Shown here: one piece after another, positions 3,434-17,419 of the stretch
Position numbering within the stretch: the stretch's first letter is position 1
Layout of the letters: each line of letters opens with the position of its first letter
DNA from: Bacteroidales bacterium
GTDB lineage: Bacteria; Bacteroidota; Bacteroidia; Bacteroidales; UBA10428
DNA: 35,836 bases
Direction of reading: 5' to 3'
NCBI GenBank assembly: GCA_016931575.1
Contig: JAFGEO010000166.1
Location: 1-35,836, forward strand
Notes under the pieces: model-generated
Database searches by the model: none
The model's input: the letters and a program-made list of their open reading frames with translations, nothing else
What the model was told of the DNA's origin: nothing
Position numbers and translations under genes: made by a program

Positions 3434-4813
3434 CTATACCAATACAGGTTGCTGCACAACGGGTTTCACATATTTAGTCACATCAAAATCTACCGGTACA
3501 TCTGCCCGATTCCGCTGTACGGGCATGGCTGCACAATTTCGCTGTTGCTGGTTCAAAGCCCTGTTTACCGTAAAATACGCAAGAGCCTCCATGAATCCCA
3601 GCGAAGCATTGGGTAAAGCACGGTTCAGTATCGATCTTGTATTAAAGATCTCTAAACGGAATTTATTGAATTCCTCCCGCATCTTATCAGCGCTCATTTT
3701 TTTTGGTTCAACTGTGATATGCCAGGTGTCGAACTTGCTCCAGTCATCAGTAAGGATCCTTCCTTCTTCCCTTAATTTATTATATAATACCGTACCAGGA
3801 TAAGGCGTAATATTTGTCGGTTGAAAGAAGCCAACTTTCGATTTCTGAATAAATTCCCTGCTCAGATCGAAGCTCGCTTCGGTATCGGTATCCAGACCAT
3901 AGATAATAGCCGCCCAGGTCAGAATGCCATTGTCTCTTAAACTTTTCACTGCCTGAATATTATCATCAAGCGATTTCAGGGTTTTGCGATATTTCTGTGC
4001 CGCATCTTCCGTAAACGATTCAAAACCTATCAGCAACGCCCGGCAGCCCGACTTATGGGCCAGCTGCATTAATTCCTCATCTTTCGTAACATTGATGGAT
4101 GACTGACCGATCCAGGTCTTTTTCAATGGGGCAAGTTCCCTGAACAATTCTTTGGCATAGACTTTATTAAAGGTGATATTGTCATCGACAAAGAGCAATA
4201 CCTTTTCATCGCATTTCTCTGCTTCTTCGATCACAGCCCTTACAGATTTATGCCGCTGCTTGGTACCAAAATATTCGGATACGGAACAAAAATCGCATTT
4301 GTAGGGACATCCCCGGGAAGTCTCAATGGGAGCTACGGTGAATCTTCCTGATTTGCACTTTATCAGGTCACGCCTTGGAATGGGCTCAAAACGCAGATCA
4401 GGCCTGCATTCCAACTGGTAAAATGGTTGAATCCTGCGATACCTCACATCGTCAAGAATCTTTTTCCAAAGCTGGATATTCATTTCTCCAATACAGACTG
4501 CATCGCCAAACATGCTGGCCTCCTGAGGTCTTACACTTGCATGAATCCCCCCAAAAATCACAACCTTGTCGCGTTTTCTAAATTCATTGGCGATTTCATA
4601 ACCCCGGATGCTGGTTTGAGTCATCAGGCTAATCCCGATCATATCATAATCACCGTCGAAATCGACTTTCTCCCCTCCCACTTCTTCACAAATAGAGACT
4701 TCATGTTCTTCAGGAGTCATTCCGGCAATAAGCGGTAAGGTCAATTGTGGAAAAAACATAGATCCAGGTCTTTCCAAACCTTTTTGGCAAGGTGCCACTA
4801 AAAGTATTTTCAT
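3434..4813 (-). CDS. Radical SAM protein with N-terminal cobalamin-binding-type domain
   Basis: 459 residues. Residues 1-130 look like a Rossmann-type B12-binding domain (MKILLVAPCQKG; DYDMIGISLMTQTSIRGYEIA; VVIFGGIHASVRPQEA). The radical SAM core follows, with the CxxxCxxC cluster motif in SRGCPYKCDFCSV (C169, C173, C176), which binds a 4Fe-4S cluster and S-adenosylmethionine. The later segments LLFVDDNITF and LIGFESFTE are usual for this class. Members perform methylations or rearrangements on lipids, natural products or cofactors; the substrate cannot be read from the sequence. It lies 291 bp downstream of the saccharopine dehydrogenase gene on the same strand, with a hairpin between, so it is probably a separate unit. 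No DxHxxG cobalamin-ligand motif was seen. Confidence 0.85.
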   Translation of the reverse strand: MKILLVAPCQKGLERPGSMFFPQLTLPLIAGMTPEEHEVSICEEVGGEKVDFDGDYDMIGISLMTQTSIRGYEIANEFRKRDKVVIFGGIHASVRPQEASMFGDAVCIGEMNIQLWKKILDDVRYRRIQPFYQLECRPDLRFEPIPRRDLIKCKSGRFTVAPIETSRGCPYKCDFCSVSEYFGTKQRHKSVRAVIEEAEKCDEKVLLFVDDNITFNKVYAKELFRELAPLKKTWIGQSSINVTKDEELMQLAHKSGCRALLIGFESFTEDAAQKYRKTLKSLDDNIQAVKSLRDNGILTWAAIIYGLDTDTEASFDLSREFIQKSKVGFFQPTNITPYPGTVLYNKLREEGRILTDDWSKFDTWHITVEPKKMSADKMREEFNKFRLEIFNTRSILNRALPNASLGFMEALAYFTVNRALNQQQRNCAAMPVQRNRADVPVDFDVTKYVKPVVQQPVLV

Positions 4814-5104: not shown

Positions 5105-6442
5105 TCAGCAAAAGTATTCTTTCTCAGTAAAGAATATGCCATGCTCTCTAAGCTCCTTCAGCACAGGTACATAGATTTCCTCAATGGTCGGAATACAGGC
5201 ACCGGTGGCTGTGATCCTTCCCTGAAGCATGAGTTTTGCTGCAATGGCCATGGGCAGGCCAACCGTTTTTGCCATAGCGGTATTCTCACGGTTCTCTCCT
5301 GTCACTCCCAAGGAAGAGGTCAGGCATCGTTGCCGTTCATCCCCTTCAACCCGGTAGTTGATCTTGTGCCACATTACTACCAAATCTCTGTCTGTGGGTT
5401 CAAGTTTCCATTTCTGATTCAGGATATGCTGCAAAATCTGGGCCGGTGTGGCATTTTTCAGCCCAATTCGGGTGTCATTGAATATTCCGAGCCATTCCAG
5501 TTTCTCGATAATGGGGGAATCCTGATCGATATGCATGTAATGGTAGAGTTTCAGTTCGACGGAATCGCGTTGGCTATAATAGAGGAAAGAGTTAATAAAC
5601 TCCCGATTGGTCATATTCTCTGTATTATCCATGATGTAGCTGTCATCTGTAGCTCCCAGCTGGACAAAAACATTCCAGGCACTGCAGAATCCGGGTCTTC
5701 GAAGGGTTCCCCGGTAGATTGTGGGAATACCATGGAGGTTATACTTCTCAATATATTTCATTGAATCACGGTTGGCATAGCCTTCGAATTTCCCGAAGGG
5801 TTCCACTTCGATTACCTCGGTACGCCGGAAGAGCCGGTTGTAGGGGATATACTTGATCTTTCCTTCCTGGATGAACTTTGCAGGACCGTCCGATCCTGCC
5901 CTGACCACCTTTTCCGGGTTCCAAGAAAACTTATAATGCCAGGGGTTATCATCGGACCCGGGTGCAACAAGCCCTCCGGTAAAGGATTCGAAACCGGCGA
6001 GTGTATGTCCCTGCTCCCTGATACGATTTAACAACTGCATCGCCGACATGTGGTCAATGCCCGGATCGAGTCCCATCTCATTCAGGATGAGGATTCCCTT
6101 TTCGCGGGCTTCAGCATCAAGGCTCCTCATGGCTTCCGATTCGTAGGACGCTGTGATCAGGGATTTTCCAAACTTCAGACAGGACCGTGCGACATGCAGG
6201 TGAAACTGAACCGGCAGCATGGAGATCACGATGTCGGCATTTTCAATAATGTGATCGCGCTGTTCCTCGTTCATTATATCAAGGGCCAGCGCTTCGGTCA
6301 TTACAGATGCCCTGGCTCTGGCCACCTGTATATCACGATCTGCCACTGTCAGTTTCCAGTTATTCTTCAGGCATTGATCTTCCAGGTATCGAATAAGTGA
6401 AATACTTGAGAGACCTGTTCCGATAATCAGTATTCTTTTCAC
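5105..6442 (-). CDS. Saccharopine dehydrogenase (glutamate-forming, Lys9/AASS C-half type)
   Basis: 445 residues, close to yeast Lys9 and to the dehydrogenase half of animal AASS. It opens with a dinucleotide-binding fold (MKRILIIGTGLSS) and has the family signature GLDPGIDHM (124-132), followed by FTGGLVAP and HYKFSWNPEKV. The C-terminal half has GYANRDSMKYIEKY and YRGTLRRPGF, also as in Lys9/AASS. The enzyme oxidises saccharopine to 2-aminoadipate 6-semialdehyde plus glutamate. It is the last gene of the eight-gene operon, 17 bp after the aldehyde dehydrogenase that would use its product. The lysine-ketoglutarate reductase that makes saccharopine is not in this window. In lysine biosynthesis the same enzyme runs in reverse, but pairing with an ALDH7 enzyme points to breakdown. 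Confidence 0.88.
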   Translation of the reverse strand: MKRILIIGTGLSSISLIRYLEDQCLKNNWKLTVADRDIQVARARASVMTEALALDIMNEEQRDHIIENADIVISMLPVQFHLHVARSCLKFGKSLITASYESEAMRSLDAEAREKGILILNEMGLDPGIDHMSAMQLLNRIREQGHTLAGFESFTGGLVAPGSDDNPWHYKFSWNPEKVVRAGSDGPAKFIQEGKIKYIPYNRLFRRTEVIEVEPFGKFEGYANRDSMKYIEKYNLHGIPTIYRGTLRRPGFCSAWNVFVQLGATDDSYIMDNTENMTNREFINSFLYYSQRDSVELKLYHYMHIDQDSPIIEKLEWLGIFNDTRIGLKNATPAQILQHILNQKWKLEPTDRDLVVMWHKINYRVEGDERQRCLTSSLGVTGENRENTAMAKTVGLPMAIAAKLMLQGRITATGACIPTIEEIYVPVLKELREHGIFFTEKEYFC

Positions 6443-6459
6443 GTGAGAAGTTTTGTGGA

Positions 6460-8007
6460 TTAAACATTAAACTCGATTCCCTGTGCCAGTGGCAGGTCAT
6501 TCCCAAAGTTGATGGTGTTTGTCTGCCTGCGCATGTAGGCTTTCCAGGCATCGGATCCCGATTCGCGGCCACCGCCCGTATCCTTTTCCCCTCCAAAAGC
6601 GCCCCCGATCTCAGCCCCCGATGTGCCGATGTTGATGTTGGCAATCCCGCAATCGGACCCCTCATGAGACAGAAAGCGTTCAGTCTCCATGAGGTTTGTG
6701 GAAAACATAGCAGATGACAATCCCTGGGGAACATGATTATGAATGGCAAGGGCTTCTTCCATCGAAGAATATTTTATCAGGTAGAGCAGCGGGGCAAAAG
6801 TCTCTTCCTGTACAATGGCGTATTCATTCTTCACCTCAGCGATACAGGGTACCACAAAGCATCCCGATTCATAGTCCCCACCGCTCAGGACTTCTCCACC
6901 GCAAAGGATCTTTCCGCCTTCCTTCTTCACTTTTTCAATGGCCTCCAAGAATACTTGGGCAGCGCCCCTGTCAATCATCGGTCCAACGAGAATCGATGGG
7001 TCCAGCGGATTCCCGATTTTAATGTTTTTATAAACAGCAACAAGCTTCTCCCTGAAACTGTTATAAACAGATTCATGAATGATGATCCTCCGGGTAGAAG
7101 TACAGCGCTGGCCGCAGGTTCCGACTGCTCCAAAGACAATGGCGCGCAGGGCCATTTCCTGATTGGCATCCGGAGTAACGATGATGGCATTGTTGCCCCC
7201 GAGTTCCAGAATAGCTTTTCCCAGTCTGCTTCCGATAAGTCCCCCGGCTTTCTTTCCAATGCGCGTGGAACCGGTAAACGATATCAGGGGGATATTTGGA
7301 TCGGTAAACATGTCATCCCCCAGGTATTTTGAGCTCGTGGCCACCAGGTTCAGCACACCTTCAGGTACGTTATTCCGTTTCAGGACCTCGGTTATAACAT
7401 GATGTACGGCAATCGCACACAGCAAGACTTTGGATGAGGGTTTCCAGACCACCACATCACCACAAACCAAGGCAATCATGGCATTCCATGACCATACAGC
7501 AACCGGGAAGTTAAAGGCTGAAACCACACCAACGATCCCCAGAGGATGGTACTGCTCGTACATCCTGTGTCGGGGGCGCTCAGAGTGCATGGTAAACCCG
7601 CATAGCTGACGTGACTGCCCGACAGCAAAATCACAGATATCGATCATTTCCTGGACTTCTCCATGGCCTTCCTGCAGAATCTTTCCCATCTCCCAGGAAA
7701 CAAGCTTCCCGAGAGGTTCCTTATACTTCCTGAGTTCCAGTCCGATCTGCCTGACTACCTCCCCCCTGTGCGGTGCCGGAACCATTCTCCACTGGGTGAA
7801 AGCAGACTTTGCGGTCTCAATTACCTGGCGGTAATCTTCCAGCGTTGCCTGCTGGATTCCGGCAATCTCTTTACCGTTGACCGGTGAAAAGGATTGCTGG
7901 ATATCTCCGGTGGTATCACCCCACCGGGTACCTGTACAGATCCCCGGGTTTAACTTTTCAATTCCTAATTCTTCAAGTGCTTTTTGAATGCCGTAATCCT
8001 GTATCAT
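6460..8007 (-). CDS. Aldehyde dehydrogenase, ALDH7/antiquitin type (aminoadipate semialdehyde dehydrogenase)
   Basis: 515 residues, full length for the ALDH superfamily. Catalytic Cys302 lies in GTCGQRCTSTRR and general-base Glu268 in LELGGNN. The NAD-site segments FNFPVAVWSWN, WKPSS and FTGSTRIGKK are intact. The ELGGNNAIIV, GTCGQRCTSTRR and FGGEKDTGGGRESGSDAWK segments are typical of the ALDH7 (antiquitin) branch, whose best-known reaction is NAD-dependent oxidation of 2-aminoadipate 6-semialdehyde to 2-aminoadipate. It sits between a hydratase gene (44 bp upstream, the widest gap in the operon) and saccharopine dehydrogenase (17 bp downstream), which fits that substrate. A betaine-aldehyde or other aldehyde specificity is less likely in this setting. 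Confidence 0.88.
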   Translation of the reverse strand: MIQDYGIQKALEELGIEKLNPGICTGTRWGDTTGDIQQSFSPVNGKEIAGIQQATLEDYRQVIETAKSAFTQWRMVPAPHRGEVVRQIGLELRKYKEPLGKLVSWEMGKILQEGHGEVQEMIDICDFAVGQSRQLCGFTMHSERPRHRMYEQYHPLGIVGVVSAFNFPVAVWSWNAMIALVCGDVVVWKPSSKVLLCAIAVHHVITEVLKRNNVPEGVLNLVATSSKYLGDDMFTDPNIPLISFTGSTRIGKKAGGLIGSRLGKAILELGGNNAIIVTPDANQEMALRAIVFGAVGTCGQRCTSTRRIIIHESVYNSFREKLVAVYKNIKIGNPLDPSILVGPMIDRGAAQVFLEAIEKVKKEGGKILCGGEVLSGGDYESGCFVVPCIAEVKNEYAIVQEETFAPLLYLIKYSSMEEALAIHNHVPQGLSSAMFSTNLMETERFLSHEGSDCGIANINIGTSGAEIGGAFGGEKDTGGGRESGSDAWKAYMRRQTNTINFGNDLPLAQGIEFNV

Positions 8008-8051
8008 TTTTATTAAGTTTTGGTCTAATGTTATGTCAGTGTTATAAGTTA

Positions 8052-9836
8052 CTAAATTTGTACCTCTTCACCTGAGCTGATCCAATTTACCAGTCCGCCA
8101 AGGTCTAAAATTTCCCGCAGCTTTTCAGGAAGCACCGGAATGGAAAACGAATGGTCGCCAACCCGGATCCTTCCCTCCTCAAGGTTTATGGAGATCTCAT
8201 CACCCGGCTGGTATGCTTTAACAGCATCAGGACAAACGAGAACCGGCAGGCCCTGATTGATCGCTGAGCGGAAGAATATGCGGGATACCGATTTTACAAT
8301 CACCGCCTCGACCCCGATAAAGGCGAGTCCTACCGAGGGATGCTCCCGTGAGCTTCCGCAGCCAAAGTTTTCCCCGCAGACCAGGATATCGCCATGCCGG
8401 ACATTTTCAGAGAAGGCTTTATCAAATCCCTTGAAAAGGTGCTGGACGATCTTCTCCGGTTCCGAGCTGTTAATCTCATAGGTCAGGTTACCGGCGAACA
8501 TCTGATCGGTATTCAGGTTGTCAGCATCCCTGTAATCCCACACCCTGCCTTTCCGACGGTCCTCACTCTCCGCTACCTCCACCGTTGGCGTTTGTTCTAT
8601 GCGATAGGGGTAGGTCTGATCGTTAGTTGCAGGTCCGGTAATCGCTCCCCGGATAGCTGATAATGCTACGGTTGCCGGTGATGCGAGGTAGATGGATGCA
8701 TTCCTGTTCCCCATTCTGCCAAGGAAATTCCGGTTAGCCGTAGAAATGACCACAGAACCATCGGCAGGGATGCCCTGTCCTGTTCCCAGACAAGGGCCGC
8801 ATGAGGGAGACAGAATATTGGCACCTGCCTCGAGGAATATTTGTATCAGGCCTTCCTGAATTGCCTGCAGGTAAATCTTTTTTGAAGCAGGAGCTATAAG
8901 AAGTTGGACGCTGCGGTCGACCAAGTGCCCATTAACAATAGCTGCTGCCACCCTCAAATCCTCCATACGCCCATTGGTACAGGTTCCGATGAGCGCCTGC
9001 ATAATTTGAGTGCCTTCCACTTCAGCAACGGTTTTCACGTTATCGACGTGGTGTGGGCATGCAACCATCGGAAAGACAACGCCCATATCAATTTCTATCT
9101 CCCGCCTATAGCTTGCATCGGGATCGGCCTCAATTCCGACATGCCCGTTCCACAGGTAATCCTTCAGCACCTCATCGTCAGGAAAAACGGCATTCTTTGC
9201 CCCCATTTCGGATGCCAGGTTAGCGATTGTCATACGATCTTCGATGCTGAGCCCCTTCAGTCCTTCACCATGGTATTCCACAGACATATAGTCGGCCCCT
9301 CCCGAACCGATCATTCCCATAATGTACAGGGCGACATCCTTGGCATATACCCCGGGATTCAGCTTCCCGGTAAGCGTGATCTTTATCGACTCCGGCACAC
9401 GGAACCAGGTTTCACCCTTCATCCAGAGTCCGGCAGTTTCCGTACGGTCAATACCTGCAGCAAAAGCATTGAAAGCTCCGGCGGTGCAGGTGTGGCTATC
9501 ACTGCCGACAATAATCATCCCCGGACGTGCGTAATCGGCCATAAGCTGGTGACAAATACCCTCGCCAACATCATGAAAGCGGCTAATCTTCTGCCCTGAG
9601 GAAAACTGACGGATCTGCTGATAATCGTTTGCCAGCTTACTGGTGGTCGGCGGGGCATTGTGGTCGAGCACCACCATGAGTTGCTCAGGATGGAGGACTT
9701 TCTCCCCCTTCATTTTTTTGAATATCTTCTCGATACTTGAGGTATTGTCATGAGAAAGAACAATATCCGGCTTTGCAAATACAATACTTCCGGCATCGGC
9801 CCCAAATATCTTTTCTGCGAATGTTTTTCCCGCCAT
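8052..9836 (-). CDS. Aconitase-family hydratase 2 (homoaconitase / isopropylmalate dehydratase-like, fused large and small domains)
   Basis: 594 residues. The large-domain cluster ligands are C286 (GTCTNGR), C346 and C349 (SPSCGPCLG), and the DSHT active-site motif is GSDSHTCTAG (111-120). The swivel (small) domain is fused at the C-terminus and starts near 430, with substrate-phosphate/carboxylate loop FGCGSSREHP (491-500). LeuC/LeuD and archaeal homoaconitases are normally split into two chains, whereas this one is fused. The family moves a hydroxyl group on a tricarboxylic or malate-type acid through a dehydrated intermediate. It follows hydratase 1 by 4 bp in the same operon. Homoaconitase activity is inferred from context only. 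Isopropylmalate dehydratase is unlikely because no leucine genes are nearby. Confidence 0.85.
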   Translation of the reverse strand: MAGKTFAEKIFGADAGSIVFAKPDIVLSHDNTSSIEKIFKKMKGEKVLHPEQLMVVLDHNAPPTTSKLANDYQQIRQFSSGQKISRFHDVGEGICHQLMADYARPGMIIVGSDSHTCTAGAFNAFAAGIDRTETAGLWMKGETWFRVPESIKITLTGKLNPGVYAKDVALYIMGMIGSGGADYMSVEYHGEGLKGLSIEDRMTIANLASEMGAKNAVFPDDEVLKDYLWNGHVGIEADPDASYRREIEIDMGVVFPMVACPHHVDNVKTVAEVEGTQIMQALIGTCTNGRMEDLRVAAAIVNGHLVDRSVQLLIAPASKKIYLQAIQEGLIQIFLEAGANILSPSCGPCLGTGQGIPADGSVVISTANRNFLGRMGNRNASIYLASPATVALSAIRGAITGPATNDQTYPYRIEQTPTVEVAESEDRRKGRVWDYRDADNLNTDQMFAGNLTYEINSSEPEKIVQHLFKGFDKAFSENVRHGDILVCGENFGCGSSREHPSVGLAFIGVEAVIVKSVSRIFFRSAINQGLPVLVCPDAVKAYQPGDEISINLEEGRIRVGDHSFSIPVLPEKLREILDLGGLVNWISSGEEVQI

Positions 9837-9840
9837 TATT

Positions 9841-11664
9841 CTAAAGTTTTAGTAAGTCTCCCCGTTGATAGATTTCTTGCTGAATCCCAGAGAAGGCATT
9901 TATTTGCATGCTTTTCCCGTTACGAAGGTTGGTTAAAAGGCCGGTTTCCAGCTCCATCCGGAGGGTATCCCGCTGCTTCAGATCCATCTCATCCAATGTA
10001 TCGTAAGTGAGTACAGGAAAGCCAGCATTGATCGCGTTGCGTTCGTAGATGGCCCCGAAGGATCGGGCCAGGATAGCTTGTGTGTTCAGAGCCCGGAAGC
10101 AATCCACTGCCTGCTGCCGTGAGCTCCCTGCACCAAAATTCCTGCCTGTTATAATGATGTCGCCTTTTTCCGACTTCCCGGGGTAGTCCTCCCAGCCCTT
10201 CAGGTTCCCGAAAGCAAATTGTCCCATTTCCTCGATGCGTGTCACCGAGAGGTGTTGGTTATGAAAGATCATATCGGTATCGATATTATCCTCGTTAACA
10301 AGCCAAACTTTACCTTCCAGCACCATCGGTTTCCCGTTGGGGGCATTTCCCATCCTGCCGGTGGTTGATTTTTGGGTCTGATCAATCCCCGGCATAAATA
10401 TGGATGGAACCTCCGGGATATCATCAGGAAGACATATATGACCCGCCACCGCCGAAGCAGCGGCAACAGCCGGTGATGCCAGGAATACCTCACCTTTTCC
10501 CTGCTTTCCTGCAAAATTCCGGTTCCCGGTACTGACGGTTTTTTCGCCCGGACCGTTCTGACCGATCTGCCCTGATGCACAACCCGCACAACCGGCATTC
10601 CCAACCAGTGCTCCGGCATCTTTAAATACTTTCAGCAAGCCTTCATCCAAACACTGTTTCCATATCTCATCTGTTGCCGGAACGATTTTAAGCATGACGG
10701 CGGGTGCCAGCTTTCTTCCCCGAAGGATTTCCGCCGTAAGCCGCAGGTCTTCCATCCTGCCATTCGTACAACTTCCGATAAATGCGGAGTCGATCTTGGT
10801 CCCTGTCAACTCTGCCACTGAAGCGATATGGTGAGGTTTTCCCGGCATTGACAAAGCCTGGAAGCCTTCTGAAATATGAAACACCAGCTTTCTTGCGTAG
10901 CTGGCACCGGAATCTGCTTCCACGGCCACACAGGTGCTGCCGGAGCGCTCAGAACAGTATGCCAGAATAGCTTCTGAAGGTTTCATAAGGATGGCGATGG
11001 CCCCCATCTCAGTGGCCATGGATGAAATGGTAATCCGCTCGTCGAGGCTTAGGTTGTCCACGACTTCCCCCTCCAGTTCTACGGCGTATCCCAGCAGGCT
11101 GTCGGCTCCAAAACGGTGCAGGAGGTTGAGAACAATGTCCTTGGCTGTGATGCCTTCGGGACGCTTTCCCAAAAGCGTAATCTTTATGGATTCGGGTATT
11201 TTAAACCAAACCGATCCGCGTGCCCATGCCGCAGCAATATCCCGGTCGCCCATGCCTTGTCCGAAGGCCCCGATGGCCCCGAGGATGTTTGCGTGGGAAT
11301 CTGTAGACACAAGGGTTGATCCCGGAATGGCCAAACCCTGATCAATGGCCAGGTGGGTACCGATGCCCATGTTGATATCAAAAACCGGTATTGCATGCTC
11401 ACGAGCATACAGGCGGCACAGCTGCTGGTTCGCAGCATATTTCTGATCAGATCCTGTCGGGTTACAGTCGAAAGTGAAGAATGTTTTTTGTGGATCGTCG
11501 GGCACCAGCATGTTATCCTGAAGGTTCTTCACTACGTTGGCACCCCCGAAATCACGTGCCAGCCGCACATCGATCCGGATGTCCACGATATCTCCCGGGA
11601 GCACCCTTTCCCTGTCGGAATGTGCTGCAAGGATTTTTTCAATGAGGGTCATTTCAATGCTCAC
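9841..11664 (-). CDS. Aconitase-family hydratase 1 (homoaconitase-like, fused large and small domains)
   Basis: 607 residues, the same domain order as its downstream neighbour but clearly a different subfamily. Cluster cysteines are C299 (GSCTNGR), C359 and C362 (NAGCAGCASG). The DSHT motif reads STDSHANILGA, with Ala in place of Thr. The swivel domain carries FGAGSSRQQAVDCF. The start codon overlaps the HD-gene stop as ATGA; a second Met at residue 5 is also possible. Two hydratases of different subfamilies in tandem would suit a path needing two hydration/dehydration half-reactions, for instance homocitrate/homoaconitate and homoaconitate/homoisocitrate. In fungi these halves are split between aconitase and homoaconitase. 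Substrate assignment is inference. Confidence 0.83.
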   Translation of the reverse strand: MSIEMTLIEKILAAHSDRERVLPGDIVDIRIDVRLARDFGGANVVKNLQDNMLVPDDPQKTFFTFDCNPTGSDQKYAANQQLCRLYAREHAIPVFDINMGIGTHLAIDQGLAIPGSTLVSTDSHANILGAIGAFGQGMGDRDIAAAWARGSVWFKIPESIKITLLGKRPEGITAKDIVLNLLHRFGADSLLGYAVELEGEVVDNLSLDERITISSMATEMGAIAILMKPSEAILAYCSERSGSTCVAVEADSGASYARKLVFHISEGFQALSMPGKPHHIASVAELTGTKIDSAFIGSCTNGRMEDLRLTAEILRGRKLAPAVMLKIVPATDEIWKQCLDEGLLKVFKDAGALVGNAGCAGCASGQIGQNGPGEKTVSTGNRNFAGKQGKGEVFLASPAVAAASAVAGHICLPDDIPEVPSIFMPGIDQTQKSTTGRMGNAPNGKPMVLEGKVWLVNEDNIDTDMIFHNQHLSVTRIEEMGQFAFGNLKGWEDYPGKSEKGDIIITGRNFGAGSSRQQAVDCFRALNTQAILARSFGAIYERNAINAGFPVLTYDTLDEMDLKQRDTLRMELETGLLTNLRNGKSMQINAFSGIQQEIYQRGDLLKL

Positions 11665-12206
11665 TTCAGTCGCTCTTTAAAAGGTAAAAAAGTCATAAAA
11701 TCGGCATGATGAACAATGTACGCTTCGGTAGTCCGCCTGATCATGTCACCCTCTCCGGCATGAGCTGCAATAATATGGCACACCTCGGGAGGGAGGCCGC
11801 ATTCTTCGGCCAGCGAGACCCCGGAAAAGGGATGACGAAGGTACTTGCCGTACTTTCCCTGAACGGCTTTTCCGTCAGTATCCAGTTCATATTCAAGTAA
11901 TTTACCTACATCGCAAAGAATAGCTCCTGCAAGCAGCGTATCCATATTAACGGGAAGTTCATCATTAAAAAACTCCCCGATCTTAAGGGCGCTTTCCCTG
12001 GCAATATGGACAACTGCCCGTTTATGGTCCATGAAGCTTACATTAAGGTCGGGACCACATAAAAGGGTGAAGGGTATCCTCCGAAGGTCTTCGGCGGTAA
12101 GCACGCTGCGTTCCAGGGCCAGCTTCCAGACCCTGCCTGTTTTCTCCCGCAGTTCCTTATCCTCTATCCATTCCAGTTCGGGCCAGAGTTGAAATACTTC
12201 TTCCAT
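11661..12206 (-). CDS. HD-domain protein with altered His-Asp motif
   Basis: 181 residues. The fold of the HD superfamily is visible: candidate first ligand H61 or H67 (MDHKRAVVHIAR), the helix with the doublet at 98-99, H125 (LRHPFSG), H144/H149 (CHIIAAHAGEGD) and a final HHADF (166-170). The usual HD doublet of this family (LLHDVGKLLEYE) here reads LCDVGKLLEYE: His is replaced by Cys98 while Asp99 is kept. Most HD proteins hydrolyse phosphate esters with a metal at this pair, so activity may be changed or lost. It starts 6 bp after the dehydrogenase gene and overlaps hydratase 1 by 4 bp, so it is firmly part of the operon. It may have a regulatory, repair or housekeeping role; the function is unknown. 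Confidence 0.8.
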   Translation of the reverse strand: MEEVFQLWPELEWIEDKELREKTGRVWKLALERSVLTAEDLRRIPFTLLCGPDLNVSFMDHKRAVVHIARESALKIGEFFNDELPVNMDTLLAGAILCDVGKLLEYELDTDGKAVQGKYGKYLRHPFSGVSLAEECGLPPEVCHIIAAHAGEGDMIRRTTEAYIVHHADFMTFLPFKERLK

Positions 12207-12212
12207 GGGGTC

Positions 12213-13400
12213 CTATTTTAATTTTTGAATAATAGCATCAGTCATCCGGACGGTTGAGGCCGCACCCTGTTTTATTACCTCGGGTTTACCCGGCATTTTC
12301 ATCATATCATAAGTTCTTACGCTGCCTTCAGCAATCACCTCAGCAACAGCTTTCCGGATACGTCCTGCAAGTTCATATTCGCCGAGGTGGTCCAGCATCA
12401 TGCAGGCGGATGCGATCATGGCTATCGGATTCACAATGGAAACTTCATAACCGGCATATTTTGGAGCTGATCCATGGGTAGGTTCGAACACGGCAACCTT
12501 TTCCCCCAGGTTGGCGCTGCAGGCGAAGCCAAGTCCGCCGATCAGTCCGGCAAAGCCATCGGACACAATATCTCCGAACATATTGCCGGCGACAATTACT
12601 CCATATTCTTCCGGGTTCTTTGTCAGCCACATCATCTGGGCATCGATGTTTGTATTCCAGAGCTCAATTCCCGGATATTCTTCGCGGATCTTCTTCGCCA
12701 TCCGGAACATCATCCCGGAGGTTTCGCGGATGACATTGGGTTTCTCGCAAACAGTTACCGACTTGTAGCCATACTGGTTTGCATGATTGAAGGCTGCCCG
12801 CAGGATGCGTTCAGTTGCCTTTTTGGTAAATATCCGGGTGGATATAGCCAGCTCTTCCGGCGGTACCCTGCCAAAATTCTTTACAAACTTTGGATGAGTC
12901 ATCAGCGCGTCGTGCACCTGTTTCCCGGGATTATGCCACTCAACGCCTCCATAAAGGCCTTCGGTGTTCTGCCGGAAGATCACCACGTCCACTTCCGGTT
13001 CCTCAACGATGCCTCCCCTGCCCCTGCGTATGAAATTCAGGGGATTCCCGGGGTAAGTCTTACAGGGACGGATACAGATATCCAGGTCGAAATGCTGGCG
13101 AAGCCCTACGATAGGACTGGAGTAAACCAATCCCTTACCCTGCAGTTCGGGGGACAGCTCGCTGGCCGCCTCTTCTTTAGGCTTGGAAGTAATGGCCCCG
13201 AAAAGCCCTACCTTATGTTTTTCCAGCAATTGAATGGTCCGGTCCGGTAAAGGGTTTCCCTCTTTAACCCAGAATTCCCATCCAATATCAGCTTCGATAT
13301 ATTCAGCCTGAAAGCCTGCAGCATCGAGTACACGGATAGCTGATTCCAGGACGACACGTCCGATTCCGTCACCAGGGAGATTTATGATTGTTCTGTTCAT
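12213..13400 (-). CDS. Isocitrate/isopropylmalate dehydrogenase family, probable homoisocitrate dehydrogenase
   Basis: 395 residues, a complete beta-hydroxyacid oxidative decarboxylase. It shows the N-terminal LPGDGIG, the substrate-arginine segment LRQHFDL..RP (R101, R111), RQNTEGLYGG (143-152), Lys221-type KPN (EKPNVIRETSG), metal-binding D253, D277 and D281 (NIDAQ; NMFGDIVSD) and EPTHGSAP near 306. The substrate loop reads YSSPIVGLR (93-101). True isocitrate dehydrogenases have a Ser-x-Asn there, and the Asn is missing here. As I recall it, fungal homoisocitrate dehydrogenase (Lys12) has a nearly identical YSSPIVALR. In the operon the reverse reaction, reductive carboxylation of 2-oxoadipate to homoisocitrate, would be needed. 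Isocitrate or tartrate as substrate remain alternatives. Confidence 0.82.
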   Translation of the reverse strand: MNRTIINLPGDGIGRVVLESAIRVLDAAGFQAEYIEADIGWEFWVKEGNPLPDRTIQLLEKHKVGLFGAITSKPKEEAASELSPELQGKGLVYSSPIVGLRQHFDLDICIRPCKTYPGNPLNFIRRGRGGIVEEPEVDVVIFRQNTEGLYGGVEWHNPGKQVHDALMTHPKFVKNFGRVPPEELAISTRIFTKKATERILRAAFNHANQYGYKSVTVCEKPNVIRETSGMMFRMAKKIREEYPGIELWNTNIDAQMMWLTKNPEEYGVIVAGNMFGDIVSDGFAGLIGGLGFACSANLGEKVAVFEPTHGSAPKYAGYEVSIVNPIAMIASACMMLDHLGEYELAGRIRKAVAEVIAEGSVRTYDMMKMPGKPEVIKQGAASTVRMTDAIIQKLK

Positions 13401-13415
13401 ACTATTAAATAGTTG

Positions 13416-14987
13416 TTAGTTGTTAGTTTGGTGCGGGGGTTGGATCTGGAATATGGTATCGATCACCGTTCCGTCCACCCACTTTACCACCGCCACGATC
13501 TTATCTGTGAACCTGGGTTTTTCGGGTTTACCACAGATCCTTTCGGCTTCCTCTTTCAGTTCGCCAATAGTTTTTATTGGCAGCGCTGAACCTTTAACAC
13601 GATCCAACAGATCCTTCCTGAGCGGATTGATCGCGATGCCACGCTCTGTGACAATTACGTCGATCAGCTCGCCGGGTCCGCAGAAGGTGGTCACCTCGTC
13701 CACGATCACCGGGATCCGGTCGCGGAAAAGCGGAACCGGAAGGATAACCGTTTTGCCGAAAAGGCAATTTTGCCACCCCCCGATGCCATGCAGAAGATAC
13801 CCATCCGAATGCGTAACGACGTTGGCATTATACTGCAGGTCAATCTCTGTGGCCCCAAGGATGACAATATCCACCATCCCGGCAAAGTTTCCTTTAGAAT
13901 GGTAGTTATAGCTGGTAAATGGACTGGTTGCTATATGCATAGGGTTTTCCCGCATCGATCTGATCCCTTCCAGGTCAAAGGTCTGGCCGTCGAGAATATA
14001 TTCCACCAGACCTTCCTCCATCATTTCCACCAGGAACTGGTTGCTTCCGGCACGGGCAAACCTGGCTTTAATGCCTTTCTCACGCATGATATCCCCGAAA
14101 TAGGTGCTGATAGCCAGGGACGTTCCGCCGGCACCGCTCTGAAAGGAGAAACCATCTTCCAGTAAGCCTACAGTCTCACAGAACTTAGCTGTAAGCTCAG
14201 CGATAAAGAGGCGGTCGGGACTCCTGGTAATCTGCGTAGTTCCTGAAACTATCTTCTCCGGAATGCCTATCTTGTCCTCAACCACTACAAAATCGACGTT
14301 GTTACCCTGGATCTGCCAGGGCACACAGGGAAAAGGCACCAGGTTATCGGTCACGATAATTACCCGGTCGGCATACTGTGAATCGGCAAGTGCAAAATTG
14401 AGGGATCCGCAGGCCGAAGGGCCCGACAGCCCATTGGCATTGCCGAATGTATCAGCAGTTGGTGCTGCGATCACGGCGATATCGATATGAACCTCCCCAT
14501 CCTGAATTGCCTGGTAACGGCCACCGTGCGAGCGCAGCACGCCGAACCCTTTCATGTTACCTTCCGAGCAGTACCTGCCCAGGGGGCCGTTCATGCTGCC
14601 TTCAACATGGTGAATCGTACCGTCCTCAAGGTAATCTATGAGTGGAGCATGACAGGGGAAAGATGCCGAAGGAAACCAAACCATATCTTTCAGTCCAAGT
14701 TCCCGGATGATGGCAAAAAGCCGGAGGGCAATCAAGTCGCCGTCCCTGAAATGATGATGGGTGGAAATCGTCATACCACTTTTTATACCGGCTTTCACCA
14801 GTGCCTCTTTCAGGTCTTTCACCTGCTTGTTGCCATCCCGGGGATAGTCGGCACAGCTTGCAACTGGCCGGGCGGCAAAAACTCCTTCGGGCTTATAGTT
14901 ATCCACTCCCTGGTATGGAATAGTCTTCCTTCCGTTTACCATTTCCGGGACCATTCTCCCGGCGGCATTTTTTATCATCTTAGTCAT
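13416..14987 (-). CDS. citF: Citrate lyase alpha subunit-like CoA/ACP transferase (proposed homocitrate-ACP transferase)
   Basis: About 523 residues from ATG 14987-14985, which overlaps the upstream stop as ATGACTAA; an in-frame ATG at 15014 would add nine residues. The whole length matches CitF: KNAAGRMVPEMVNGRKTIPY near the start, GMTISTHHHFRDGD, PTADTFGNANG, FSFQSGAGGTSLAIS and FCGPGELIDVIVTERGIAINP. CitF exchanges the acetyl group on the carrier subunit for the substrate acid, releasing acetate. The order D-E-F is the same as in classic citrate lyase operons, but citC, citX and citG are absent here. Next to saccharopine and aminoadipate genes, homocitrate rather than citrate is the suggested substrate. 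Confidence 0.87.
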   Translation of the reverse strand: MTKMIKNAAGRMVPEMVNGRKTIPYQGVDNYKPEGVFAARPVASCADYPRDGNKQVKDLKEALVKAGIKSGMTISTHHHFRDGDLIALRLFAIIRELGLKDMVWFPSASFPCHAPLIDYLEDGTIHHVEGSMNGPLGRYCSEGNMKGFGVLRSHGGRYQAIQDGEVHIDIAVIAAPTADTFGNANGLSGPSACGSLNFALADSQYADRVIIVTDNLVPFPCVPWQIQGNNVDFVVVEDKIGIPEKIVSGTTQITRSPDRLFIAELTAKFCETVGLLEDGFSFQSGAGGTSLAISTYFGDIMREKGIKARFARAGSNQFLVEMMEEGLVEYILDGQTFDLEGIRSMRENPMHIATSPFTSYNYHSKGNFAGMVDIVILGATEIDLQYNANVVTHSDGYLLHGIGGWQNCLFGKTVILPVPLFRDRIPVIVDEVTTFCGPGELIDVIVTERGIAINPLRKDLLDRVKGSALPIKTIGELKEEAERICGKPEKPRFTDKIVAVVKWVDGTVIDTIFQIQPPHQTNN

Positions 14988-16191
14988 GGTTCCCCTCCCT
15001 CCAGTTTGCAGCAAGCATCCCGCTTTTCACCGCATAAGTGATGATCCGCAGCGCCCGCTTTGCCACTGGTGGATCAATCATTTTCGTTCCCAGGGAGATA
15101 ACCCCCAGTTTATTTTTCTCCGCTTCCTCCCAGGCCAGCACGATCTTTTTTGCCCGGTCGATCTCTTCCTGATCAGGATCATAGCCCTTATTGATCGGAT
15201 CCACCTGCCGGGGGTGTATGCATCCCATTCCCGAAAATCCGAGAGCCTTTGAAGCGGCGATATTTGTCTTGAGACCTTCCCTATCCCCCACATCGGAGAA
15301 CACCGAATCGATGGCCTGAATACCCGCTGCTACGGCAGCATTAACAACAGAAGCGCGGGCATACAAAGATTCCCGGCCCTCTGTGGTCCGTTTCACACCC
15401 AGATCGGCTGTATAATCTTCGAGTCCAATGGCCAGGGCCACGACCCGTTTTGAAGCTGTTGCGATCTGATATGCATTTACCACGCCCAAAGCACTCTCGA
15501 TGATGGGCATCAGGTGTACAGGAAAACCAGCATCAGGTAAAAGCCGGTCCATGATTTTATCCACCTCAGCAAGCTGCGAGGCAGATTCGCATTTAGGGAT
15601 CAGGATAAGATTGGGCCGCTGGGGAAGGATGGCATTAAGGTCTTCCAGGCCCAAGGGCAACTGATTGATACGGACCATTCTTTCAGCACCACCAAAATCA
15701 AGCGAGCGAAGTGCATTTCTCACCAGGTATCGGGCTTCTGCCTTTTTATCGGGGGCCACGGAATCCTCCAGGTCAAGAATAATGCCATCAGCACCGTGAA
15801 TGCCTGCATTGATCATCAGTTTGGGCGAATTTCCGGGGATATACAGCCGTGACCTTCGCAGCCGGTCTTTGGCGGTTGGAGACTGTGAGCTGCCGGTCAT
15901 TTGAGGAAGGTATTCCCTGTCGCCCGGAAAGACTTGTTTCAGGGCAGCCTCAAGACGTGCAGCAAGCACAAAACCGAGGGCTCCCTGATCATCAATATGG
16001 ACAAGTGCATTCGTAATTCTAAAATAGGAGAAGATATCCAGGCACAAGCTGCGAATGGCATTTCCATACAATACTTCGACCTTACTTACCAAGCGGATAT
16101 CGATGCCGGGATCAGTTGCCGGCTCCACAGAAACGAAGCAGTCTGAACGAATAGAATCCCCGCAATTACCTGCAGTTCCTTTCATTTGCAT
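14980..16191 (-). CDS. citE: Fused citrate lyase acyl-carrier (CitD) and beta subunit (CitE)
   Basis: 403 residues. Residues 1-95 match CitD (SDCFVSVEPATDPGIDI, VLYGNAIRSLC, DDQGALGFVLAARLEAALKQV). Residues 107-403 are CitE of the HpcH/HpaI aldolase family (RRSRLYIPGNSPKLM, ADGIILDLEDSVAPDKK, MPIIESALGVV, ALAIGLEDYTADLG, GFSGMGCIHPRQV). CitE cleaves the acyl-carrier thioester of the acid into acetyl-carrier plus an oxo-acid. Most citrate lyases keep D and E as separate chains. The carrier serine of classic CitD (G-T-L-E-S) is not at the same place: the region reads SIRSDC, with Ser16 next to the expected site. It is the first gene of the operon, and ATG at 16191 or 16185 could be the start. 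Confidence 0.85.
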   Translation of the reverse strand: MQMKGTAGNCGDSIRSDCFVSVEPATDPGIDIRLVSKVEVLYGNAIRSLCLDIFSYFRITNALVHIDDQGALGFVLAARLEAALKQVFPGDREYLPQMTGSSQSPTAKDRLRRSRLYIPGNSPKLMINAGIHGADGIILDLEDSVAPDKKAEARYLVRNALRSLDFGGAERMVRINQLPLGLEDLNAILPQRPNLILIPKCESASQLAEVDKIMDRLLPDAGFPVHLMPIIESALGVVNAYQIATASKRVVALAIGLEDYTADLGVKRTTEGRESLYARASVVNAAVAAGIQAIDSVFSDVGDREGLKTNIAASKALGFSGMGCIHPRQVDPINKGYDPDQEEIDRAKKIVLAWEEAEKNKLGVISLGTKMIDPPVAKRALRIITYAVKSGMLAANWREGNHD

Positions 16192-16750: not shown

Positions 16751-17419
16751 TTAGCCAAGTTTACTTAGAATCTTTAAAAGGTCGATGCTCTTTAATGAAA
16801 CAAAGCGATCGTCAATTTCAATCATCTTGTCGTTTTTAAATTCAGTAAGCGTGCGGCTTACACTTTCTCTTGTCGAATAGACTAAATCGGCTAGCTCTTG
16901 TCTGGACAGGGGTAATTTAAAATCGTTCATACCATAAATTTCAGAAGAAAAAAAAAGTAATACTTCGGCAATCCTTCCGGGAAGCTGTTTCTTCGGCAAA
17001 TCGATGAGTTTATTAAATAAACTCACACCTTCTTCACTGAATTGCCTCATAAATTGCAGAGCAACACCACCGTTTTCTGTTAATACCTCAGCTAAAACCT
17101 GCAAATTTGTACAGATAACTTCAGAATCTTCTAATGCAACGGCAGAAAACGGGTAACGGGTTCCGCTGAAAGCAGAAAAAAGGCCCACATAACTTCCAGA
17201 GCCAACAATCTTGAGTATAGTAGATCTATTAGGAGCTTCGTTCTTGAAAATCTTTATTAAACCTTTCTGAAGATACATGAAGTGAGTGATCGGTTTATCC
17301 TCACTGTAGACAAATTCACCAATAGCATGCCTAACCACCAGACTGTTATCATTAATCCGGGCAAGCTGCTCAGCTGAGAGCATTTCGTAAGCCGGTAATT
17401 TGAAATCAACAGAGATCAT
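16751..17419 (-). CDS. Crp/Fnr-family transcriptional regulator
   Basis: 222 residues. An N-terminal cyclic-nucleotide-binding-type barrel (about 15-125: GEFVYSEDKPITHFMYLQKG, GSYVGLFSAFSGT) is followed by a long dimerisation helix and a winged helix-turn-helix (168-200: LSRQELADLVYSTRESVSRTL). The recognition helix reads R-E-S-V-S-R (E185, S188, R189), which matches the E-x-x-S-R pattern that FNR uses to read TTGAT, not the R-E-x-x-G-R of CRP. There is no N-terminal Cys cluster and only one Cys (C103), so it should not sense oxygen through a 4Fe-4S cluster. The effector is unknown. It is transcribed toward the operon from 560 bp upstream and may act on the palindrome at 16240-16255, though that is inference. 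Confidence 0.88.
   Translation of the reverse strand: MISVDFKLPAYEMLSAEQLARINDNSLVVRHAIGEFVYSEDKPITHFMYLQKGLIKIFKNEAPNRSTILKIVGSGSYVGLFSAFSGTRYPFSAVALEDSEVICTNLQVLAEVLTENGGVALQFMRQFSEEGVSLFNKLIDLPKKQLPGRIAEVLLFFSSEIYGMNDFKLPLSRQELADLVYSTRESVSRTLTEFKNDKMIEIDDRFVSLKSIDLLKILSKLG

Follow-up and report, generated by a model that had tools for sequence, protein, structure and literature searches.

Lysine degradation through saccharopine, by AASS (aminoadipic semialdehyde synthase) and ALDH7A1, continues with 2-oxoadipate dehydrogenase and glutaryl-coenzyme A (glutaryl-CoA), and glutaryl-CoA is the end point of nearly every lysine route that MetaCyc annotates, according to an excerpt of PMC5653290. 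In the aminoadipate pathway of lysine biosynthesis, homocitrate, homoaconitate, homoisocitrate and 2-oxoadipate are the intermediates, and two aconitase-family enzymes are used (excerpt of PMC3556520). Citrate is cleaved by the citrate lyase of citCDEFXG operons (e.g. in Enterococcus durans, locus L290), and one half of the reductive tricarboxylic acid (TCA) cycle leads from 2-oxoglutarate through isocitrate to citrate and its cleavage. Elements of all four systems were found together in one operon, at positions 5105-16191 of a 35,836-nt stretch of Bacteroidales DNA (this whole stretch is called the window, and the genome to which it belongs G000). The operon probably encodes a lysine-degradation pathway in which homocitrate is cleaved to 2-oxoglutarate and acetate. 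It consists of eight open reading frames (ORFs), all on the minus strand; this arrangement and the gene families, as described in an earlier note on this DNA, were confirmed by the ORF coordinates and by hidden Markov model scans:

14980..16191, minus strand: CitD-CitE fusion (CitDE), 403 aa; PF06857 (a domain resembling acyl carriers) at residues 15-86 and PF03328 (a barrel of the citryl-CoA lyase type) at residues 113-327
13416..15014, minus strand: CitF-like transferase, 532 aa; PF04223, E=4.5e-136
12213..13400, minus strand: NADP-type beta-decarboxylating dehydrogenase, 395 aa; PF00180 (Iso_dh family)
11661..12206, minus strand: HD-fold protein, 181 aa; PF01966, 41.3 bits
9841..11664, minus strand: hydratase 1, fused LeuC-LeuD-type member of the aconitase family, 607 aa; PF00330 and PF00694
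8052..9836, minus strand: hydratase 2, fused LeuC-LeuD-type member of the aconitase family, 594 aa; PF00330 and PF00694
6460..8007, minus strand: ALDH7, L-piperidine(piperideine)-6-carboxylate / aminoadipate semialdehyde dehydrogenase, 515 aa; NF050084 equivalog
5105..6442, minus strand: saccharopine dehydrogenase (SDH), glutamate-forming type, 445 aa; PF16653, 252.9 bits, and PF03435

The genes are closely packed. By the ORF coordinates CitDE and CitF overlap by 35 bp (the true start of CitF may be downstream of the listed TTG, the Pfam match beginning at residue 62), followed by gaps of 15 bp (CitF/dehydrogenase) and 6 bp (dehydrogenase/HD), an overlap of 4 bp (HD/hydratase 1), and gaps of 4 bp (hydratase 1/hydratase 2), 44 bp (hydratase 2/ALDH7) and 17 bp (ALDH7/SDH).

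Compared with the known systems, the operon and its genome share the families of lysine-ketoglutarate reductase (LKR), SDH and ALDH7 with saccharopine degradation, but from 2-aminoadipate onwards the operon provides for carboxylation and cleavage, whereas the known pathway proceeds by oxidative decarboxylation. The intermediates proposed here are those of aminoadipate biosynthesis; in contrast to that pathway, the operon would run backwards, a lyase would replace homocitrate synthase, and the dehydrogenase carries an NADP-type rather than an NAD-type motif. CitE and CitF are 40-44% identical to those of citrate lyase, yet the CitD of the operon is fused to CitE and has Arg or Lys in place of Ser14. 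The reductive TCA half has the same chemistry and enzyme families and is one carbon shorter than the operon route; the operon enzymes are paralogous to the ordinary isocitrate dehydrogenase (IDH) and aconitase of G000 and do not replace them.

In the proposed pathway, LKR, which is encoded elsewhere in G000 and within the cluster in four relatives, would combine lysine with 2-oxoglutarate and NADPH to give saccharopine. SDH would split saccharopine with NAD(P)+ into glutamate and 2-aminoadipate semialdehyde, which ALDH7 would oxidize with NAD+ to 2-aminoadipate, and an aminotransferase would convert 2-aminoadipate and 2-oxoglutarate to 2-oxoadipate and glutamate. The NADP-type dehydrogenase would then carboxylate 2-oxoadipate with CO2 and NADPH to homoisocitrate, the two hydratases would isomerize homoisocitrate by way of homoaconitate to homocitrate, and CitF and CitDE would cleave homocitrate to 2-oxoglutarate and acetate, via free acetyl-CoA and homocitryl-CoA, with no CoA-like group attached to the protein. 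By arithmetic, the sum is lysine + 2-oxoglutarate + CO2 + H2O giving 2 glutamate + acetate, which is redox-neutral and balanced in all four elements (C, H, N and O); the redox and 2-oxoglutarate bookkeeping of the earlier note was right. We infer the substrate choice, the direction of the reactions and the CoA mechanism.

Relatives of the locus were collected in two ways. When 395 genomes of the class were searched with the dehydrogenase (E <= 1e-40), eight matched, namely G000, three genomes at 72-77% identity (G172, G277 and G299) and four others at no more than 44%. When genome_contigs was scanned with an alignment of the four dehydrogenases, at least 582 relatives were found, and the best 80 loci (74-80% identity) were kept; these were named as Bacteroidota, Chloroflexota, Neomarinimicrobiota, Calditrichota and others. 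ORF calling recovered the dehydrogenase in 79 of the 80 loci and CitF in 31 of the 80 stretches, many of which are cut by contig ends. In four of the 80 loci (L020, L024, L068 and L090) the order citDE-citF-IDH-HD-Hyd1-Hyd2-ALDH7-LKR-SDH was observed on one strand with gaps of up to 266 bp. Since the gene order is kept in these four loci, with LKR inserted between ALDH7 and SDH, the association of the genes is not due to chance, and the linkage of the last two genes to the first six, whose absence from related genomes the earlier note had named as refuting its proposal, is present in relatives. At least one lysine gene was found in seven of the 80 stretches (the four above, L034, L061 and L075), and further stretches from G402 (L070) and G400 (L067) raised the number of lysine-linked loci to nine. 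In G402, LKR-SDH-ALDH7 and the module lie on one stretch (L166) with other genes interrupting, and contig C234 of G400 starts with Hyd2-ALDH7-SDH (L288). The module is rearranged in L075, an Anaerolineales chromosome, where ALDH7 scored 760.1 bits against a cut-off of 730; the apparent fusion of ALDH7 to an FtsH-like protein at 14575-17220 of L075 spans a masked stretch and was taken as an artefact, and only its ALDH7 part was used. Among the best 80 loci, lysine genes were the sole recurring partners of the complete module. Two of the loci with the whole cluster including LKR belong to cultured organisms, Prolixibacter denitrificans (DSM 27267; L020) and Carboxylicivirga linearis (L024), so that the pathway is directly testable.

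The window ALDH7 reached 787.7 bits against the cut-off of 730 of NF050084, the L-piperidine-6-carboxylate dehydrogenase equivalog, and this cut-off was also exceeded in all five relatives scanned, one of them the Anaerolineales chromosome. Residues 2-441 of SDH matched the SDH domain of human AASS (E=6e-65), and fungal saccharopine reductase was matched too; the NCBIfam scan of the window protein gave no match. Among the other genomes classed as linked or probably linked, all 10 that possess an SDH have one with 61-64% identity to that of the window. An LKR, which the earlier note had advised looking for elsewhere in the genome and whose absence it had listed as a second refuting outcome, was found there as one of four AlaDh_PNT_N matches (L019:1486-2700, 404 aa). 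Its residues 6-397 matched the LKR domain of human AASS (8dda, E=3e-36), and lysine-forming saccharopine dehydrogenase (2q99 and others) was matched more weakly; its downstream neighbour is on the opposite strand. In addition, a PH1688-like protein (3abi, E 2e-67) was observed at L001 1405-2628 of G000; we take PH1688 to be a lysine dehydrogenase, and the protein could be a second entry to piperideine-6-carboxylate. As homoisocitrate dehydrogenase, homoaconitase, SDH and LKR are common to fungal lysine synthesis, the genes might be thought to run in the biosynthetic direction, as aminoadipate-type lysine synthesis. We consider this very improbable: neither homocitrate synthase nor an ATP-using aminoadipate reductase is among the eight genes (to which this search was confined), ALDH7 acts oxidatively, and citrate-lyase-type complexes favour cleavage.

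For the lower steps, 19 genomes bearing the dehydrogenase were searched: four from the class sample and 15 picked from the 80 loci, most of them for their lysine or module genes, so that the set is not random. Homology to the enzymes of the citrate cycle suggests another reading, in which the first six genes would carboxylate 2-oxoglutarate to isocitrate and cleave it, via citrate, to oxaloacetate and acetate. The lysine genes would then be co-transcribed only because saccharopine breakdown gives glutamate, and 2-aminoadipate would leave by a 2-oxoadipate/glutaryl-CoA route encoded elsewhere. Of the enzymes of that route, neither 2-oxoadipate dehydrogenase/ferredoxin oxidoreductase nor glutaryl-CoA dehydrogenase is among the eight genes, to which the search for them was confined. 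In favour of the C6 reading, all enzymes of the module except the HD protein are homologous to citrate-cycle or citrate-lyase enzymes, and 73 of the 80 loci show no lysine gene. Against it, G000 already encodes a separate NADP-IDH with scores above two equivalog cut-offs (743.8 bits against 490 and 705 against 567.3) and a separate aconitase above that of aconitase_mito (1151 bits against 825.35), whereas the dehydrogenase and hydratases of the operon stay below all listed equivalog cut-offs for IDH and aconitase. The association of the module with ALDH7, LKR and SDH in relatives, and with only ALDH7 in the Anaerolineales genome, likewise speaks against it. We regard cleavage of citrate as unlikely.

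A verified separate IDH was found in 12 of the 19 genomes: an NADP-IDH by NCBIfam in nine (G000, G172, G299, G399, G401, G402, G404, G405 and G406) and a monomeric IDH in three more (G396, G403 and G407). A further Iso_dh homologue, which was not classified, was present in G395, G397, G400 and, weakly, G409, and none was found in G277, G398 or G408. Matches of the aconitase family (frames of 551-930 aa) beyond the LeuC and operon types were observed in 17 of the 19 genomes, with only that of G000 classified. That the operon dehydrogenase serves as the housekeeping IDH, as might be supposed from the many relatives with only the dehydrogenase-HD pair nearby, was rejected on the basis of the 12 verified separate enzymes.

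The best NCBIfam models for the dehydrogenase were those of the AksF2/AksF homoisocitrate dehydrogenases (278 and 259.1 bits, under the cut-offs of 540 and 500); the best IDH models gave 235.2 bits against 510 and 226 against 509. Across 82 of 82 aligned rows, K314-Y315 and S95-P96-I97-V98 are invariant, within a loop Y-x-S95-P-I97-V98-x-L/M-R101 in which position 100 is L in 79 rows and M in three. The separate NADP-IDH of G000 has RSLNVALR and APKYA at the loop and cofactor-pair positions, and solved homoisocitrate dehydrogenases have APDIA (D-I) where the operon family has K-Y. The NADP-like cofactor pair, together with the replacement of the isocitrate-loop Asn by Ile, fits a reductive, carboxylating role for the operon enzyme, although the substrate is not proven thereby. 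The same residues bear on the C6 reading from both sides, as Ser95 stands at the position of the pocket residue Ser113 of E. coli IDH, but the loop Asn of the NADP-IDH of G000 is Ile in all 82 operon-type rows. We propose that the dehydrogenase is a homoisocitrate dehydrogenase that would carboxylate 2-oxoadipate. Its fold, predicted from a shallow alignment with a mean pLDDT of 76.7, was too weak for the pocket to be read.

The HD protein was present in 66 of the 80 loci, directly after the dehydrogenase in 54, and is proposed to be a partner of the dehydrogenase. The second His of its HD motif is replaced in 70 of 70 rows (A in 55, C in 11 and I in four), and H61, D99, H125, H144, H149, H166, H167 and D169 are kept in all 70. 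Its predicted fold (pLDDT 92.7) matched YhaM (9h3f, E 4.8e-5, TM 0.68) best, as the sole match at E <= 0.001; the fold matches, to HD-domain proteins, name no function, and a profile of the HD family found nothing among the sequences of the Protein Data Bank.

Both hydratases hold the swivel domain PF00694. Hydratase 1 passed only the subfamily model NF001614/PRK00402 (400.7 bits, cut-off 385), and hydratase 2 passed the subfamily models PRK00402, TIGR01343 (homoaconitate hydratase family; 487.4 bits, cut-off 385.7), TIGR02086 and TIGR02087; no equivalog cut-off was passed by either among the best 25 of 26 models, and some of the subfamily models passed also cover isopropylmalate (IPM) dehydratase. 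Three cysteines, which we take to be the Fe-S ligands, were conserved in each enzyme (C299, C359 and C362 in 29 of 29 rows of hydratase 1; C286, C346 and C349 in 17 of 17 rows of hydratase 2). The substrate-loop residues of the hydratases differ from all the loops of homoaconitases and IPM isomerases with which they were compared. As stated in the excerpt of PMC3556520, a study of fungal enzymes together with a Thermus aconitase showed that two enzymes of the aconitase family, each catalysing one half-reaction, are required to turn homocitrate into homoisocitrate, and this would account for the presence of two hydratases in one operon. We propose that hydratases 1 and 2 each perform one half of the isomerization of homoisocitrate to homocitrate; interconversion of citrate and isocitrate needs no two distinct hydratases, a further point against cleavage of citrate. 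As a separate observation, an MmgE/PrpD family protein was found near the dehydrogenase in nine loci (L039, L040, L042, L049, L058, L064, L075, L085 and L097; family checked in L075 only), where it perhaps replaces one hydratase.

To judge from its sequence, the lyase of the operon is not a normal citrate lyase. CitDE scored 282.5 bits against TIGR01588, under the cut-off of 443.4, and CitF 504.2 bits against TIGR01584, just above the cut-off of 501.45. The window CitE is 40-41% identical to two canonical CitE proteins and the window CitF 41-44% to two canonical CitF proteins, and CitF is 62-76% identical to the module-type CitF of relatives except for L040 (53%). For the CitE part, the closest solved structures by sequence were a mitochondrial citrate-lyase-beta-like protein (5vxc) and malyl-CoA lyase (5ugr). 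The attachment serine of the annotated Enterococcus durans CitD (Ser14) aligns with Arg15 of the window CitDE. At this position, which in citrate lyase carries the prosthetic group, Arg was found in 27 and Lys in four of 31 rows, the window included, and the next residue is Ser in 30 rows and Ala in one. The count covers CitDE ORFs of more than 250 aa that span the site; two rows repeat counted loci, and in one more, at a contig end, the domain is missing.

In citrate lyase, CitG makes the precursor of the prosthetic group and CitC is the ligase (activation). Neither had a match in G000. Among the 19 genomes, CitG was matched in three and absent from the matches of 16, and CitC was matched in the same three and marginally in G409, leaving 15 without a match (CitX was not searched genome-wide); module-type CitF was found in all 19. 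The three genomes with CitG and CitC are those with a second, canonical CitF (G396, G403 and G407), accompanied by a free-standing CitD. In two Carboxylicivirga genomes and Labilibaculum (L196, L197 and L198), a canonical citrate lyase operon, which encodes a free CitD and a protein of about 470-490 aa containing CitG, coexists with the module-type lyase elsewhere in the same genome, and three canonical CitD proteins of Carboxylicivirga and Labilibaculum keep Ser at the attachment position. That three relatives have in addition a canonical citrate lyase served by a separate set of CitD, CitG and CitC argues further against citrate as the substrate of the module. In the related carrier protein of malonate decarboxylase, Ser25 bears the prosthetic group (excerpt of PMC5534430). 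A CitD without the serine, together with the lack of CitG and CitC matches, points to free acetyl-CoA and homocitryl-CoA, which probably serve as catalytic intermediates; we infer that CitF may be an acetyl-CoA:homocitrate CoA-transferase and CitE a homocitryl-CoA lyase. The homocitrate-cleavage route put forward in the earlier note is strengthened by the LKR, the linkage, the IDH and aconitase paralogues and the stoichiometry, but not its CoA-free mechanism: the statement that the path needs no CoA esters is probably wrong, given a CitD without the prosthetic-group serine in a genome without CitG or CitC matches.

Several observations weigh against the homocitrate route. Homology does not fix whether the operon enzymes act on C6 or C7 substrates, and the dehydrogenase falls under every homoisocitrate dehydrogenase cut-off as well. 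Lysine genes were found in just seven of the 80 loci (nine with the extra stretches), although many stretches end at contig ends, and in six Bacteroidota-type genomes of the 19 searched (G172, G277, G299, G407, G408 and G409) the module was found without any lysine gene alongside. In these six, the best SDH matches were 51% (G407), 37% (G277), 36% (G409), 35% (G408), 34% (G299) and 33% (G172) identical to the window SDH, against 61-64% in G395, G396, G397, G398, G399, G400, G401, G402 and G403, and no ALDH7 was found in the stretches around their SDH, LKR and CitF genes (whole genomes were not searched). For three further genomes, G405 and G406 had only a lysine-dehydrogenase-like match to SDH (26-27%) and G404 only weak matches, and no LKR match was found in G404, G405, G406 or L075, though the module is present. 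An LKR was matched in 302 of the 395 sampled class genomes (E <= 1e-40), and finding one is therefore uninformative by itself. Its co-occurrence with the dehydrogenase was rejected as statistical support, LKR being so common and the dehydrogenase having only four close matches (G000 and three others) in the same 395 genomes; in the 14 other sampled genomes of the window's own order, neither LKR nor the dehydrogenase was matched at E <= 1e-40. Seven of the 19 genomes are without a verified second IDH. In a quick tree of the dehydrogenase, the 11 linked rows need six changes (shuffled mean 10.5, 0 of 500 as low), with L050 included among them although its contig stops short of the lysine genes; the linked rows are clustered but do not form one clade. 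The pocket residues are identical in linked and unlinked rows, as expected either for one reaction with scattered genes or for a module that is not lysine-specific. No gene was assigned to the aminotransferase step. A branched-chain-type aminotransferase adjoins the dehydrogenase in G172 and G277, and in G299 a 2-oxoacid:ferredoxin oxidoreductase does so: L015 6821-15407 holds the dehydrogenase, HD protein and both hydratases with a two-gene oxidoreductase (one gene combining the TPP and POR domains) where CitDE and CitF would be, and the CitDE and CitF of G299 are elsewhere (L203).

The aminotransferase of G172 and G277 is of class IV and lies directly upstream of the dehydrogenase (L013 2783-3802 and L014 4992-6011; family checked in L013, with L014 76% identical), and is a candidate for the transamination step. 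It would also suit a module that reverses the chain elongation of another 2-oxo acid (e.g. 4-methyl-2-oxopentanoate via isopropylmalate), or a promiscuous one for which lysine is one substrate. The aliphatic I97 in the pocket loop, a likeness to IPM dehydrogenase, and the module of G404-G406 without an LKR match would agree with this. On the other hand, contig C45 of G000 holds separate genes similar to LeuB and LeuC (classified no further), the highest scores of the dehydrogenase are with homoisocitrate and not isopropylmalate models, and it is with lysine genes alone that the complete module recurs among the best 80 loci. Such a function is, in our judgement, quite improbable. For the homocitrate route, we lean slightly towards a wider formulation, that a module widespread in more than one phylum converts 2-oxoadipate to 2-oxoglutarate and acetate by reversed homocitrate formation, with a prosthetic-group-free, acetyl-CoA-dependent homocitrate lyase as a new activity, and provides a lysine route that avoids glutaryl-CoA.

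No description of homocitrate cleavage in lysine degradation was found in the open-access PMC literature, judged by the titles and starts of abstracts of the papers listed, which for two queries were the best 20 of 1,670 and the best 20 of 49 (most subscription papers and all preprints lie outside this scope), and the term "homocitrate lyase" did not occur in the open-access PMC literature searched. If the reading is true, it would add a redox-neutral, CO2-fixing pathway of lysine degradation that leads to glutamate and acetate without passing through glutaryl-CoA, as well as an enzyme activity, homocitrate lyase. It would also assign a function to a conserved family of dehydrogenases (at least 582 genome_contigs stretches fit its peptide patterns and encode a relative, the best 80 of them being compared here) and to the accompanying hydratase and lyase genes. 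Annotation would name the genes of the module isocitrate dehydrogenase, aconitase and citrate lyase, and misreading the module as citrate cleavage could yield false predictions of a reductive TCA cycle.

Outside the operon, the flanking gene of Crp/Fnr type at 16751-17419 had no match among the ORFs of the compared stretches, and the radical SAM gene at 3434-4813 had, besides itself, one 30% match (L049); because of this, the conserved unit looks limited to the eight operon genes. Further away in the window, at 976-1821, a TonB C-terminal domain is followed by a Por secretion tail in one protein, a seemingly unusual pairing.

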